Under the pieces are notes generated by a model. It did not search any database and was not told where the DNA came from. It was given only the letters and a program-made list of their open reading frames with translations. A program made the position numbers and the translations under genes. Source: Calliopum simillimum (lineage: Eukaryota > Arthropoda > Insecta > Diptera > Lauxaniidae). From it: 64,000 bases of DNA. Positions 1,743-59,268 of this stretch are shown piece after piece. Location: contig OX638368.1 in NCBI GenBank assembly GCA_951812925.1, forward strand, positions 149,220,492 through 149,284,491, given 5' to 3'. Numbering within the stretch: the first letter of the stretch is position 1; the number at the start of each line of letters is the position of its first letter.

Positions 1743-3633
1743 GGGTAAGGGAGGGAAATATATAAAACAAAACACTTAATTTTATGTCATCCAGTAAAGC
1801 GAACAATTTACCTTTATTCTGATTCACTTTTAGATAAATATCTCATCAGGACAAAGAAAAAAAATTAAAAAACTGAAAATACTCAAAATGAAGATAAAAA
1901 AAAAGTGTAGTGTAATATGGACCATATAGTCCATTTGGTACAGAAGTTGCATATAAAAATGTCACTTCCATATTCGGCATATTTTTCATGACTCCAAGAA
2001 CGTCAGATTACACATTCAACCCAAAATTCGCCACGTCGATCTTCTGAGTAAAGGGTGTTACATTATATGCATTTTTTATCATATTTTTCCTTTGTAGTTA
2101 ACGAATTACATAAAACTAGTATCGCCGGTGGCCAAAATTTGGCCTTTTACTTTGAGATATATACACTTTTTCCGAGTACCGTTTGATAAAAAAGAAAGCC
2201 AGAACATTGAGTTTTCATTAATCGTAGCAACATTTTTTATATGCACCAGGCTCAGTATATCTTAAAACCGAATAACATAAAAATTGGTGTAGTGCTTGTG
2301 CCAAAAAATATCGGAAAACATCCAAAATATCGAAAAGATCTAAAAAGTATCGATAAACATCGGTATGTATATCGGTAAAAGTCCAAAAGCATCGAGAAAC
2401 ATCCAAAATATCGGAAAAATCCAAAAGCATCGAAAAACATCCAAAATATCGGTAAAAGTCTAAAAGTATCGAGAAACATCCAAAATATCGATAAGAGTCC
2501 GAAAGTATCGAGAAACATCCAAAATATCGATAAAAGTTCAAAAGTATCGAAAAACATTCAAAATATCGATAAAAGTGCAAAAGTATCGAGAAACATCCAA
2601 AATATCGATAAAAGATCAAAAGTATCGAGAAACATCCAAAATATCGGTAAAAGTCCAAAAGCATCGAGAAACATCCAAAATATCGATAAAAGATCAAAAG
2701 TATCGAGAAACATCCAAAATATTGGTGAAAGTCCAAAAGTATCGAAAAACATCCAAAATATCGGTAAAAGTCCAAAAGTATCGAGAAACATCCAAAATAT
2801 CGGTAGAAGTCCAAAAGTATCGAAAAACATCCAAAATATCGGTAAAAGTCCAAAAGTATCGAAAAACATCCAAAATATCGGTGCAGAACGTCGACAGAGC
2901 GCAACGAAACAGGTTTCGTGCAAGCAAGAGAAAAGCAACAACAACAAAATTTCTCTTACTCCACTGTCTCATTCACTTTCTAAACAACACAGCATAACTC
3001 TGTGGGTGCTGTTGTTGTTGTAATTATAAAGGAAACTTTGATCCTGTTTTTAAATGTCTGAATGGCAACTTATGAGGATAATTTTTAGATTCGTGGATTC
3101 TACACCACAGTATCTATCATATAAAAAAAAATATCCAAAATCGGTTAAATGGTTAGCTCGCAAAAGGGGCGCAAAAAAAACTGTTCACGTATTTATATAT
3201 AGATGACCATCAACTGCAACTAGATTCCCCATCTGAAAAAGATGATAAACATATTTGTTTTTAAGGCTTTTTTCTTTGGTGGTCCATATAACCCACAGCA
3301 CGTGTTGGTGAAATAAATGGTTTTTATCGAAAACTCTTTTGGTTAATGAACTTATTTGTACTAATAAATTATAAATGGTATTCACTGACTTTATATAATG
3401 AACCATTTATTTACAAACGCGATGTCTTTAAAGTGAAATAATGAAATAATAAAAATAAGAAAAATCAACTTTACAGAAACATGCGACTTCACCGAACGCT
3501 GAAATCGCCCTATTATAAGCTTTAGGTATTAGCGCTAAGTTTGAACATGAATAACGGGAAATCCTATGTATGCAGTGGGAAATAACCGTGTGGTCCATAT
3601 TACCCACGTAGTCCATATTTCCCTCGCTTACCT
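1743..3633 (-). mobile_element. TA-flanked TIR DNA element (family A), copy with internal insertion
   Basis: The left end GGGTAAGGGAGGGAAATA and the right end, ending CCCTCGCTTACC, form terminal inverted repeats with TA on each side (1741-1742 and 3634-3635). The empty site is seen at about 35155-35165, where a related sequence reads GAAGTACTTTT without the element. Interior 1743-2110 and 3195-3633 match family copy A3 (59996-60841) in reverse. About 1.1 kb with a minisatellite is inserted between those parts. The TA duplication and TIR suggest the Tc1/mariner/pogo superfamily. No intact transposase remains. Confidence 0.8.
2306..2885. repeat. Minisatellite, 39-bp unit, about 15 copies
   Basis: The unit is 39 bp, centred on the pieces GTCCAAAAGTATCGAGAAAC and ATCCAAAATATCG. 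Because 39 is divisible by 3, both strands stay open and give repetitive 13-residue reading frames, which I do not regard as genes. Several units contain TATCGATA (for example near 2486, 2525, 2565, 2604 and 2681). The array lies inside the foreign insertion of element 1743-3633. Confidence 0.9.
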
Positions 3634-24944: not shown

Positions 24945-25412
24945 TTTTTTTTTATATAGAAAATTGATTTTTTAATTGAACTTTTAGTCATATATTTGCA
25001 AAGATCGACTTACATATAAATCTATCAATGCATTTTTCTAACACATAATTATGACAAATCAAGGAACGGATTAAAAACACGGCTATAGTGACATATGTTT
25101 CGTCTTTCGCCACAAAGACTCATCAGACTATTTTTGTTTTAATTATAATTATATTTATTTTACTAAATTAATTATAATTGAAAAATTGCAAATTTGAAAA
25201 CTTTTTGTGTTTTTGGCCTGGGCGGGAGTTGAACCAAGGAACTCGCGGTTGGTAGCAGAAGTCGTTACCACTGCACCAGCCTTGCCCGGCTGCGAAGTCG
25301 ACTTTTGCCAGTTTTGTTTGTGTGTTAATACGTATTGATATATCATAATTGTTGTTTTGTGTTATTTATTGATATTTGGTATAGTTGTTCCTTTGGAACA
25401 AATTCAATACCA
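24945..25412 (-). mobile_element. tRNA-headed SINE-like element with hammerhead, inverted copy
   Basis: On the minus strand the order is: A-box-like TGGTGCAGTGG (25268-25278), B-box GGTTCAACTCC (25225-25235), a body ending in AT-rich sequence, a hammerhead motif (25085-25131), then a tail. It is the mirror of 25514-25981: coordinates of matching bases sum to 50926, with very few substitutions. Together the arms form a hairpin of about 468 bp with a 101-nt loop. Confidence 0.8.
25085..25131 (-). ncRNA. Type I hammerhead ribozyme motif (minus-strand copy)
   Basis: The sequence is identical to that at 25795-25841. Read on the minus strand: stem I strand ATAGT, CTGATGA core, stem II GTCTTT with a six-base loop and AAAGAC, then GAA, stem III ACA-TA-TGT, C17, and the other stem I strand ACTAT. 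Every conserved core position of a hammerhead is present. Predicted cleavage follows the C complementary to 25090. Confidence 0.85.
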
Positions 25413-25513
25413 ATTCAATTTTCTATATATAAAAATGACATTAAGTAACACACTTAAAAACTCTTAAAGTTATTTGGGAGAACAAGCCCTGATAAGGTGG
25501 AAACACCTGCAAT

Positions 25514-25981
25514 CGGTATTGAATTTGTTCCAAAGGAACAACTATACCAAATATCAATATATAACACAAAACAACAATTATGATATATCAATACGTATTA
25601 ACACACTAACAAAACTGGCAAAAGTCGGCTTCGCAGCCGGGCAAGGCTGGTGCAGTGGTAACGACTTCTGCTACCAACCGCGAGTTCCTTGGTTCAACTC
25701 CCGCCCAGGCCAAAAACACAAAAAGTTTTCAAATTTGCAATTTTTCAATTATAATTAATTTAGTAAAATAAATATAATTATAATTAAAACAAAAATAGTC
25801 TGATGAGTCTTTGTGGCGAAAGACGAAACATATGTCACTATAGCCGTGTTTTTAATCCGTTCCTTGATTTTTCATAATTATGTGTTAGAAAAATGCATTG
25901 ATAGATTTATATGTAAGTCGATCTTTGCAAATATATGACTAAAAGTTCAATTAAAAAATCAATTTTCTATATATAAAAATG
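25514..25981 (+). mobile_element. tRNA-headed SINE-like element with hammerhead, direct copy
   Basis: A-box-like TGGTGCAGTGG at 25648-25658 and B-box GGTTCAACTCC at 25691-25701 are spaced as in tRNA genes (43 bp between start points). The AT-rich body at about 25712-25790 is followed by the hammerhead at 25795-25841 and a tail with TTCAATTAAAAAATCAATTT. Head, body, ribozyme stem II and tail are shared with 43195-43435, so this is a real dispersed family. No protein frame. The element should be transcribed by RNA polymerase III if its boxes work. Confidence 0.8.
25795..25841 (+). ncRNA. Type I hammerhead ribozyme motif
   Basis: Stem I is ATAGT (25795-25799) with ACTAT (25837-25841). The core CTGATGA is at 25800-25806. 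Stem II is GTCTTT (25807-25812) with AAAGAC (25819-25824), loop GTGGCG. GAA is at 25825-25827. Stem III is ACA (25828-25830) with TGT (25833-25835), loop TA. C25836 is the cleavage-site base, so cleavage is predicted between 25836 and 25837. An outer helix, ATTAAAAC (25783-25790) with GTTTTTAAT (25848-25856), could extend stem I beyond an internal loop, as in natural type I hammerheads. The very short, self-complementary stem III (ACATATGT) suggests better activity as a dimer. Confidence 0.88.
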
Positions 25982-26392
25982 TCATTAAGTAACACACTTA
26001 AACATTTTTTTTTATAAACAAGTACAAAAGGGCTGAGTTTAATAAGCACAAATAAGTTTAATAAATTTTTGATGAACAATCCCAAATTGAATTGAATTGA
26101 GCTCAAATGAGCATATTCACTTTTTTGATAAACAATCACATTATTACTTGATATCAAGAAAATTATGGACAAGCGGAAAATCACACCCAACATTGATTGG
26201 TTTGGGATTGTTTTCAGCTCAAAATTCTCTCCGTGTTAAAAAGTGTCATGTATTCGGGTATGAGACATCATGTATCCTGGTATGAGACACTTTATTTTTT
26301 TCAAACCTAAATCGTGTGCAACTGTCAAATATCGACATGTATGTAATGATGCACACATGTGTTTACGTACAGTTATGGTGTTCTTCCCAAGA
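25982..26392. other. Interior of composite element D
   Basis: Starts with a repeat of CTATATATAAAAATG-CATTAAG (also at 25422). Contains two GGTATGAGAC motifs near 26257 and 26280, matching the ends of element D. No gene. Confidence 0.5.
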
Positions 26393-27246: not shown

Positions 27247-27663
27247 AAAAGCTCGAAGAAATGGTATAGGTTTCATTTGCGAAAGCCAGAAATGACTAGC
27301 TTACTTTTTTCACCTGTCAAATTTATTTAGTTGTATGTAGCTGCCCTAGAAAATACTAGTCCAATGCTGCCAGTTTCGTTTCCACATAGCCGAAACCAAT
27401 GACGTAAAGCGCGGACTCGCAACGGTGAAATGCATTGTTTTTATGTTGCGAATTGTGGAATGAGAAAGGCGCAAAAAGATCCGTGTTGCCAGATCGCGGT
27501 TAGGCATATATTTTGCGAATAGGGATTAAAACTTCAAGAAATGTATTTGATTATTTACCTATGTTGCTGTCGTGAAATGTGTTACAATACTACCAAATAC
27601 CTGTTCAGTTTTTCACCTATCAGTTGTTTAATTTATTTATCATAAAAAAAGCAAAACTATTTA

Positions 27664-30600
27664 TTCAAAGGTCGTATCAAGTTACTTTCTATGTTTGACG
27701 ACAATTCTGATATAACACTAGACAAATTAGTAACCGAAACACAACGAATGTTAACACTTGAAAGTGACACACATCTAGTTGAATCTCCTTCATTGGCAGC
27801 AAACGCAGTTCAACAACAAAAATTTAAAACACATAATCATCAATCTTATCATGCAACACCAAGGCGACCATGTTGGCAGTGCGGTGCCATGCATTTTGTC
27901 AAAGACTGTGATTTTAAACAACATAAATGTACAATCTGTGGCAGAATTGGACACAAAGATGGGTATTGCGCATGTTTTCGGGGACAATATGATGCGGACA
28001 ACAAAATCAATTCTTCAAAATATCAGCGTGAACACGATAACTTCAATCATCACACACAAGTCGTTTCCGCAACTTCACATAAAAATGTAAAAAGCGTACA
28101 CACATCCTATCGAAAATTTATCACAATCAAAGTTTTCGATAAATCACTTAATCTTCAATTTGATACAGCATCTGATATCACAATAATTTCACAATTGAAT
28201 TGGAACATGATTGGTCGACCTACACTTTCACCTTGTTCTCATTATGCTTCGGACGCTTCTAATAATGAAATTCAACTTATTGGTGAATTTGAAGGGCTGG
28301 TCCATCATCAAAACAAAGCTTGTGAATGTACAATTTTTGTCACAAGCCTTCCGAATTTGAACATTTTTGGCCTTGATCTCATACACAAATTTGATTATTG
28401 GAATCAATCACTTTACTCTATTTGTAATGCAATCTCAGCAAATATGAACAAAGAAATGCTTTTTAACGTCATAAAAGGTAATTTTCCTGAAGTACTTCAA
28501 GAGAAGATAGGTCACTGCACAAAATTTCGTATCAAGTTGGAAATCAAATCAAACGCAACATCAGTTTTCAAAACAAAACGACCTGTTCCATATGCGGTTC
28601 TCCAAACAGTTGAAGCCGAATTAAAAAAACTCGAAGAAGCAAATATTATTACACCCATTACACATTCAGAATGGGCTGCTCCTATAGTTGTGATACGGAA
28701 ACCAAATAATCAAATTCGTATCTGTGCAGACTATTCAACAGGACTAAATGAATGTATGGAACAACATCAGTATCCACTACCACATGTTAACGAGATTTTT
28801 GCAAAAATGTCTCAATGTAATATATTTAGTACGATTGATTTGTCAAATGCATATTTGCAGTTTGAGATAGATGATGAATCTAAACAAATTCTAACGATCA
28901 ATACTCACAAAGGACTTTTTTCTTTCAACCGATTACCATTTGGAGTTAAATCTGCACCGGGCGCTTTTCAAAAGGCCATGGATACCATACTTTCAGGACT
29001 TGATGGAGTTACTGCTTATTTAGACGATGTCATTATAGCAACTTCTACACTAGAAAATAACTATAAATTAGTAATGGAAGTTATGAAAAGATTCCGAGAA
29101 CATGGTCTGACGGTAAATTGGGCAAAATGTGATTTGTTTCAAACCACAATCAAATACCTTGGTCATATTATTGATAACGAGGGCATTCATCCAGATCCAT
29201 CAAAAATAAAAGCAATTCAACATATGCCAAGACCAACAAATATTTCTGAACTTCGATCCTTTTTGCGAGCCGTAAATTATTATGGGAAATTTATAGCTGA
29301 AATGAGGAAATTACGAAGTCCATTGGATGAATTGCTGAGATCTGGTGTTAAATGGAACTGGAGTAGCCAATGTGAAAAATCATTTGAAGACTTTAGTCAA
29401 ATTGAAAAGGAAGCATTAGCATTGGTATATGCTTGTACAAAGTTTCATCGTATGATTTATGGTCGTAAATTTACACTTTGGACGGATCATAAACCATTGC
29501 TAAAAATTTTTGGTTCAAAAAAAGGTATACCAACACATACTGCAAATAGATAACAGAGGTGGGCATTAACCATGATGAGCTATGATTTTGAAATTCAGTA
29601 CATTAACACAAAAGAATTTGGCAATGTTGATGTTTTATCGCGACTTATCGATATTCAAAGACATGGCGATGAAGACTTCGTAGTCGCACGTGTAGAAAGT
29701 GAAGTAAGGAATATTCTTCAGGAAAACATAGATTATTTACCTGTCACATTTAATATAATACGGAAAGAAACCCAATTAGACTCAACACTTTGTAAAGTAT
29801 GTCGTTATATTGAAACTGGTTGGCCGAATACATCAAAAGATATTCCACTCGATGTGCAACCGTTTTTCAAAAGACAAGAAACACTCAGTATTGTCAATAA
29901 TTGCATTATGATGTTAGATCGGATTCTAGTTCCATTCAGACTTCAGAGAAAAATCCTAAAACAACTACACAGAGGACATCAAGGTATTGAAAGGATGAAA
30001 TCCATTGCCAGATCATATGTATATTGGCCTCAAATTGATGAAGACATCAAGAATTTTGCCAGACAGTGTGAAAATTGTGCTGTTGTTGCAAAATCACCAA
30101 TCAAAACTACACTAAGCTCTTGGCCAGTTCCAAAGGAACCTTTAGAGAGGATTCATATTGATATCGCCGGACCTATTCGTGGCTATTACTACTTTATAAT
30201 GGTTGATGCTTTTTCAAAATGGCCTGAAGTAGCTCAAATAACTTCAATTTCGTCACACACAATAATTAATCATTTACATAAATTTGTATGCAGATATGGT
30301 CAACCAAAAACAATTGTTTCTGATAATGGAACACAATTTATCAGTTCAACTTTTAAACGATTTTGTGAAGAGAGAGGAATTATTCATATATTTAGTCCTC
30401 CATATCATCCTCAGTCAAATGGACAGGCAGAACGCTTTGTCGATACCATTAAAAGAGCCTTGACAAAAGCTTATGGAGAAAGTTCTAAAGACGACAAGAC
30501 GAATCTTCTCATTTTTCTAGCACAATACCGCTCCACCCCAAATACGAACACATTAGATGGCAAATCACCATCTGAGTATTTTATAGGTAGAAAATTGACA

Positions 30601-30708
30601 ACTCCATTAGATCTTATCAAGTTCAAAGATTTACCTGTTACAGAAAGGAACATTCCAATGGAAAGAGCTTTTAATAAAAAAAATGGAGCTTTGCCGCATG
30701 AATGATAA
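27664..30708 (+). pseudogene. Decayed Gypsy (Mag-lineage) retrotransposon, gag-pol remnant
   Basis: It opens in the C-terminal part of gag. Two zinc knuckles follow (C61-X2-C64-X3-H68-X4-C73 and C80-X2-C83-X4-H88-X4-C93, counted from Met at 27691). Next come an aspartic protease motif (FDTAS near residue 155), a reverse transcriptase with YLDD at residues 443-446, a partial RNase H, and an integrase with the HHCC finger and DDE residues (HIDIAGP, SDNGTQF, QAE). Breaks: gag N-terminus missing; deletion of the first part of RNase H, with its first catalytic Asp, near 29395; in-frame TAA at 29551-29553; frame loss near 30701; 3' end cut by fold-back 30715-31683. No LTRs were found. Lineage is judged from the RNase H/integrase wording (TDHKPLLKIFG, HTANR) and the paired knuckles. 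Confidence 0.92.
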
Positions 30709-59087: not shown

Positions 59088-59268
59088 TATATATTTGCAT
59101 ATATATACATGTATATATATATTTGCATATATATACATGTACATAGCCTCATCAGACCTACATATTTTAGTTAATCTTTGCTTCTTACTAGAATCGAACC
59201 TGCAGCCTTCTGCATTCTAATGAAAGAGTGCAGCAGGCCTCTACCACTTAGGCCACGCTACGGAACGA
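59088..59268 (-). mobile_element. Head of second tRNA-headed repeat, with 5' half of a hammerhead
   Basis: On the minus strand: A-box-like TGGCCTAAGTGG (within 59243-59258), B-box GGTTCGATTCT (complement of 59191-59201), then GGT (stem I), CTGATGA (complement of 59149-59155) and GGCTAT (stem II, complement of 59143-59148). It then enters an ATATAC microsatellite. Stem II pairs with AUAGCC at 57492-57497, and stem I GGU with ACC at 57477-57479. So the original element had a complete hammerhead. Confidence 0.75.

Follow-up and report, generated by a model that had tools for sequence, protein, structure and literature searches.

Metazoan non-LTR retrozymes are described as tandem, low-GC repeats of 150–450 bp that carry type I hammerheads and are flanked by duplications of more than 4 bp (PMC7229834); they are reported from many phyla including insects, with Penelope-like elements (PLEs) suspected as their helpers (Cervera and de la Pena 2020, PMC7229834). 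According to a 2020 review, retrozymes seem to be without promoters, and the metazoan repeats to be without a conserved motif that would betray the helper (PMC7761336). PLEs themselves are reported to insert as tandem or partial tandem copies, with a head-to-head inverted part and an optional 30–40-bp tail at one end (PMC3846280), an inverted pLTR being among the published traits (PMC11167929, PMC3846280). In vitro, an Anolis PLE was reported to cut and extend both strands, and its reverse transcription (RT) to begin at two internal positions, by which the tail is defined (PMC11167929). A further group, the schistosome repeats Sm-alpha and Sj-alpha, is SINE-like, combines similarity to tRNA-Gln with a hammerhead and is estimated at more than 10,000 copies, with a satellite-like relative of 335 bp (PMC2770079, PMC8490949).

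With animal retrozymes and a tRNA-headed schistosome hammerhead SINE already known, the element described here is a variant. It probably belongs to a retrozyme-like family, non-autonomous and non-coding, whose 543-bp unit is moved by PLE machinery via circular or multimeric RNA. A description of this 543-bp family was not found among the titles and abstract openings listed in searches of the open-licence literature. Like metazoan retrozymes, it is a small AT-rich tandem repeat with a type I hammerhead in each unit and many copies, and it shares with them the low GC (33% in the unit of one array, L044) and the duplications of more than 4 bp (10–14 bp, at 18 of 39 loci). Its unit, however, lies outside the reported size range (which is a range of reports and not a definition), and it is therefore called retrozyme-like rather than a sure member. 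Also unlike those retrozymes, it has inner A and B boxes, and its insertion ends bear a PLE signature.

With PLEs the element shares a hammerhead that precedes two alternative RT starts, an optional tail, an inverted head-to-head part, tandem copies and a target duplication; unlike them, it has neither an RT nor a GIY-YIG gene, and its sequence resembles none of the PLE regions compared. The RT starts lie ~120–175 nt past the cut site here, as against ~85–90 nt to the first site reported for the Anolis PLE (PMC11167929). The schistosome repeats are similar in being SINE-like and in joining a tRNA-like part to a hammerhead; this combination thus has a precedent, as Sm-alpha is known. Their similarity to tRNA-Gln is, however, plain, whereas none is recognisable in the present element, and PLE-type ends such as those found here go unmentioned in the accessible text on the schistosome repeats (PMC2770079, PMC8490949). 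Helenus TRIM elements, which have tRNA-derived sequence in the LTR, are likewise non-SINE retroelements with tRNA-like boxes; they differ in being LTR elements, and the accessible text on them does not mention a hammerhead (PMC10886601).

The hammerhead motif and its 543-bp unit

In the window (the whole 64-kb stretch of DNA that was analysed), the original prediction had placed an element at 25514–25981. That span was too short: the insertion extends over ~24957–26004 once an inverted copy is included. Its parts are as follows, with u numbers used below for positions in the 543-bp unit.

24945–24956, no strand: left target-site duplication, TTTTTTTTTATA, an exact repeat of 26005–26016
24957–25415, minus strand: inverted partial copy of the 543-bp unit, from comparison with other copies
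25085–25131, minus strand: second hammerhead, identical in sequence, inside the inverted copy (core start 25126; strict descriptor)
25415–26004, plus strand: direct copies, joined head-to-head to the inverted copy, from comparison with other copies
25648–25658, plus strand: A-box-like sequence, TGGTGCAGTGG, from a box search
25691–25701, plus strand: B-box-like sequence, GGTTCAACTCC, from a box search
25726–25729, plus strand: TTTT between B box and hammerhead, a potential pol III stop
25741–25745, plus strand: TTTTT between B box and hammerhead, a potential pol III stop
25795–25841, plus strand: hammerhead ribozyme motif, type I, from Rfam alignment, strict descriptor and letter-by-letter reading
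26005–26016, no strand: right target-site duplication, TTTTTTTTTATA, 12 bp, an exact repeat of 24945–24956

The inverted copy extends from its outer, ‘short' 3′ end (~u510) to an inner end at u43, and the direct part consists of the end of one unit (u491–543) followed by one nearly complete unit, terminating at a ‘long' 3′ end (by eye ~u534, a little before u543). The AT-rich body is present where it had been predicted. By eye, the 543-bp unit has no ORF over ~70 codons, and it contains no frame of the size of the RT plus GIY-YIG ORF of a PLE. Elsewhere in the window, open frames that by eye resemble a Ty3/gypsy-type pol (zinc knuckle, RT and integrase) lie at 27646–30705 on the plus strand, in two adjoining pieces with a stop between them, and repetitive open frames on both strands at 2218–3023 are probably a minisatellite.

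Every core element that had been claimed for the hammerhead was confirmed by letter-by-letter reading and by the strict descriptor. These are the core CTGATGA and GAA, stem I (ATAGT/ACTAT, 5 bp), stem II (GTCTTT/AAAGAC, 6 bp, with loop GTGGCG) and stem III, an 8-nt palindrome (ACATATGT, 25828–25835), with the predicted cut site between the cleavage base C25836 and A25837. The motif thus has the CUGANGA/GAAA/NUH core, the three stems and the open stem I of a type I hammerhead, and it is because stem I is open that it is assigned to this type. The strict descriptor matched only the two motifs listed above in the 64-kb window, and had 0 matches in 1500 Markov-1 randomised 64-kb sequences (one strand). 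As a sequence motif the hammerhead is real, and self-cleavage is predicted from it.

Comparison with the Rfam type I covariance model, which had been proposed as a check, was favourable in alignment but not in score: Hammerhead_1 (RF00163) aligned over its full length with 25795–25841, at 21.5 bits (E value 0.017 with 701 bases searched), under the gathering score of 34 bits. An Rfam scan of the window at gathering level consequently lists nothing, and the claim made here is for a motif whose hammerhead core is complete, and not for a curated family match. In the array L044, the best hammerhead-clan match was to the type III model (22.7 bits, E 0.37), so far below its cut-off (48.5) that Rfam leaves the hammerhead type unsettled. 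Searched across the whole genome, RF00163 had 0 matches, as it had in the control genomes; since the known copies were missed as well, this result is uninformative. An exact match to the 30-mer hammerhead core was absent from the viral and genome contig collections searched. MIR and snoRNA matches in the Rfam output were dropped, being attributed to the inverted structure and the AT content.

To describe the family, the source genome (690 Mb, 334 contigs) was searched with the 468-base query, which gave 1779 candidate places; the best 40 were scored (134 matched stretches) and 39 loci were fetched, a sample biased to intact copies because it was drawn from the best 40 of 1779 candidates. A 42-base hammerhead pattern (up to three mismatches) matched the genome 2185 times (1110 plus 1075), while the reversed pattern, used as a control on the same genome, had 0 matches. 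Seven direct units follow each other in the array L044 with a period of 543 bp. Among the 39 loci, the best of the 1779 candidates, runs longer than one unit were found in 33, and runs on both strands in 30 (runs for the strand counts being defined as at least 30 nt at 88% identity).

From the 39 loci, 84 units of at least 440 bp were assembled into a set. The 50-base stretch around the hammerhead was unchanged in 76 of the 84, the strict motif giving the same count. The expectation that the core varies less than the body was borne out on average (mean variability 0.002 in the hammerhead versus 0.016 outside it), but among 493 sliding windows 24, that of the hammerhead being one of them, were equally low, and as the copies are ~98% alike this test of conservation is weak. 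Same-strand units within an array had a median identity of 0.996 (73 pairs), compared with 0.978 between loci (3396 pairs). Opposite-strand pairs inside one locus (median 0.982, mean 0.969; 17 pairs) showed no clear excess likeness over units of different loci (mean 0.974). Moreover, several loci hold a unit identical to one at another locus, which indicates recent activity of the family. The reading as a mobile, non-coding and recently active repeat with an intact hammerhead is supported.

Insertion ends and Penelope-like elements

The outer borders of the copies were sorted, by a forced two-way rule, wherever the 3′ part u465–489 was kept and flanking DNA was reached. In the 39 loci, 60 outer 3′ ends were thus classified: (i) 30 ‘long' ends, 28 of which were measured at u540–543 (2 unmeasured); (ii) 30 ‘short' ends, 23 of which were measured at u493–510, the other 7 being unmeasured, mainly because the A run there differs in length. 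One long and one short end were combined in 15 of the 39 loci, while 10 loci had a short end only and 9 a long end only; two short ends (2 loci), two long ends (2 loci) and two long plus one short end (1 locus) made up the other combinations. Flank duplications of 10–14 bp were found by an automatic rule in 18 of the 39 loci (12–14 bp in 16 of these), as against 24 of 1482 control pairings of flanks taken from separate loci, and a looser listing of flanks suggests that more than 18 of the loci are duplicated. The duplications reported for rotifer PLEs are shorter, at 8–10 bp (PMC3846280).

All components of the PLE footprint, that is, two 3′ ends or a tail, an inverted part, tandem copies and a duplication, were therefore present. 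This insertion pattern points to the reverse transcriptase of a PLE as the spreading machine. Furthermore, a pol III SINE accounts less well for the 543-bp tandem unit, the two 3′ end classes, the duplications and the head-to-head inversions than does a retrozyme-like repeat inserted in PLE fashion.

The retrozyme-like repeat could instead have been moved by a LINE enzyme, with the inversions arising via twin priming, as inverted 5′ parts and duplications like those of 10–14 bp seen here also occur with LINEs. This is unlikely, however: the two 3′ end classes lie ~35–50 bp apart, as in published PLEs (PMC11167929, PMC3846280), the ends listed have no consistent poly-A tail, and in 20 of the 39 loci both outer ends are 3′ ends of the element.

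PLEs that bear hammerheads reside in the same genome. Scoring of 150 of 209 candidates gave 51 GIY-YIG matches, two of them in 841-aa open frames, and hammerhead-like cores were present in 23 of the 30 GIY-YIG loci fetched, the cores falling into four PLE families. Stem III of these cores is short and mostly palindromic; a short helix III has been linked with cleavage as dimers (PMC7761336). In one PLE family with its own hammerhead, copies end, by eye, at two places ~34 bp apart. The cores of the PLE families (L051–L077, L099–L101 and L103) are short and occur, for example, with GAAATGCATC or GAAACGTC.

Six further PLE fetches yielded hammerhead-like cores in four (L099, L100, L101 and L103), none of which matched the 543-bp unit. 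The remaining two (L098 and L102) are without such a core, and L102 matches the unit solely via a dispersed repeat of ~870 bp. When the 3′ part of the element was compared with six PLE 3′ regions of four families (A, B, D and E), the similarity was not above that of shuffles. From the insertion pattern we infer a PLE as helper of the repeat; among the PLE regions compared by sequence, none was identified as this helper.

The dispersed repeat, ~870 bp long by eye (L078–L097; L058:659–928), was first met beside a PLE (L058), and a search for it gave 1490 candidates, 40 of which were scored. It contains a tRNA-like part, an AT body and a hammerhead with altered core bases, the altered motif being found by pattern in 6 of 20 copies and also in the majority sequence of 19. 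As an ancestral SINE of the present family it was rejected, and it is taken to carry a captured retrozyme fragment.

Among the 51 GIY-YIG matches, the two on contigs C183 and C104 look bacterial. More broadly, GIY-YIG or COX1 frames on C183, C104, C219, C211, C326, C50 and C58 look bacterial or derived from other mitochondria, and the assembly may thus contain symbiont or contaminant contigs. The host mitochondrion seems to be contig C334 (16,185 bp), of which C2 carries copies.

The template RNA and the pol III boxes

The position of 5′ ends bears on the RNA from which the copies were made. Among 80 runs, 60 read across the cut site. The 5′ ends of the 80 are scattered round the unit, with only 2 within 3 nt of the cut site (~1 expected); 7 begin at u1, which is probably an artefact of run chaining. 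Linear monomers cut by the hammerhead are thus not the usual templates, because their ends would fall at the cut site. The ends fit templates of RNA continuous across that site, with circles and uncut multimers fitting equally. As evenly spread 5′ ends suit uncut multimers as well, the ribozyme may not be involved. The hammerhead of the Anolis PLE is reported to be inactive without protein and dispensable for insertion in vitro (PMC11167929).

The A and B boxes are present where they had been predicted. By expectation, a 64-kb strand holds 0.01 such pairs. The window contains three: two belong to the element, and the third, an unrelated pair (59191–59255, minus strand; TGGCCTAAGTGG ... GGTTCGATTC), is tRNA- or SINE-like, with no tRNA call. 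In the unit set, the A box was found in 82 of the 84 units, the first ten bases of the B box in 79, and both boxes in 77. No tRNA was found by ARAGORN in the window or in five loci; Rfam, too, gave none for the isolated segment or for that of the relative L058, even with the threshold relaxed to E 10. The term ‘tRNA-headed' thus comes down to the two boxes, and the recognisable tRNA head of a tRNA-derived SINE is absent.

The segment from A to B box also changes faster than the ribozyme. Its version in the window matches the genome 395 times (199 plus 196; up to three mismatches), whereas a version with the B box GGTTCGTCTC, in which the near-invariant A of the consensus GGTTCRA is replaced, matches 735 times (373 plus 362); together these typed copies correspond to about half of the 2185 hammerheads. 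The GGTTCGTCTC version was read in one unit (C1:60409110–60409705), where the hammerhead is unchanged and the sequence nearly identical elsewhere. As this 735-copy version pairs a damaged B box with an unchanged hammerhead, the hammerhead is kept where the B box is not. Likewise, the mean variability is 0.025 in the tRNA-like part versus 0.002 in the hammerhead. One reading of this fast-changing segment, which we regard as quite improbable, is that a PLE protein copies circular or multimeric RNA from two fixed sites and that the segment is an RNA handle and not a promoter; it would then serve, for example, a circle-closing tRNA ligase or the binding of the PLE protein.

The original prediction was of a tRNA-derived SINE whose pol III transcript includes the hammerhead and cuts itself. 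The proper spacing of the boxes and their joint presence in 77 of the 84 units would agree with this, as would the precedent of Sm-alpha, a tRNA-Gln-like SINE with a hammerhead (PMC2770079). However, of the 84 units examined 80 were scorable, and 78 of these have both T4 and T5 between the B box and the hammerhead; the B box ends with CA, not CC, in 72 of the 77 units where it was read. Since T runs of at least four terminate pol III, a transcript from these boxes should mostly stop before the ribozyme. Together with the lack of a tRNA call from either program, the greater abundance of the damaged B box, the higher variability of the tRNA-like part and the tandem and inverted arrays, which are not SINE-like, this makes the pol III SINE very unlikely. 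A satellite spread by unequal exchange, with the hammerhead a functionless relic, would explain the tandem 543-bp arrays and the greater likeness of units within them, yet is highly improbable in view of the small, dispersed arrays, the inversions, the duplications at 18 of 39 loci and the unchanged hammerhead in 76 of 84 units.

Proposed cycle and significance

For the retrozyme-like family moved by PLE machinery, the following cycle is proposed. Tandem genomic copies would be transcribed into multimeric RNA, for which read-through or pol II transcription is likelier than pol III. The hammerhead would cut this RNA to unit lengths, probably as a dimer of two units, since its stem III is an 8-nt palindrome and a palindromic stem III favours dimers. 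A host RNA ligase may then close the unit-length RNA into circles, or the RNA may stay multimeric. The PLE protein would bind the RNA and cut AT-rich DNA on both strands, and reverse transcription would start at either internal site (~u493–510 or u543), once per side of the break. Finally, the two cDNAs would meet head-to-head, which would leave tandem units, partial copies in inverted orientation and a duplication, mostly 12–14 bp long.

The element bears on two questions, namely which enzyme helps animal retrozymes and why their hammerhead is retained. Its insertion ends supply a helper-revealing motif of the kind that metazoan repeats were said to lack. Moreover, since this end motif and hammerhead-bearing PLEs coexist, the link between retrozymes and PLEs can be tested with one purified protein and one RNA, in a family of about two thousand natural hammerhead copies with two well-defined ends.
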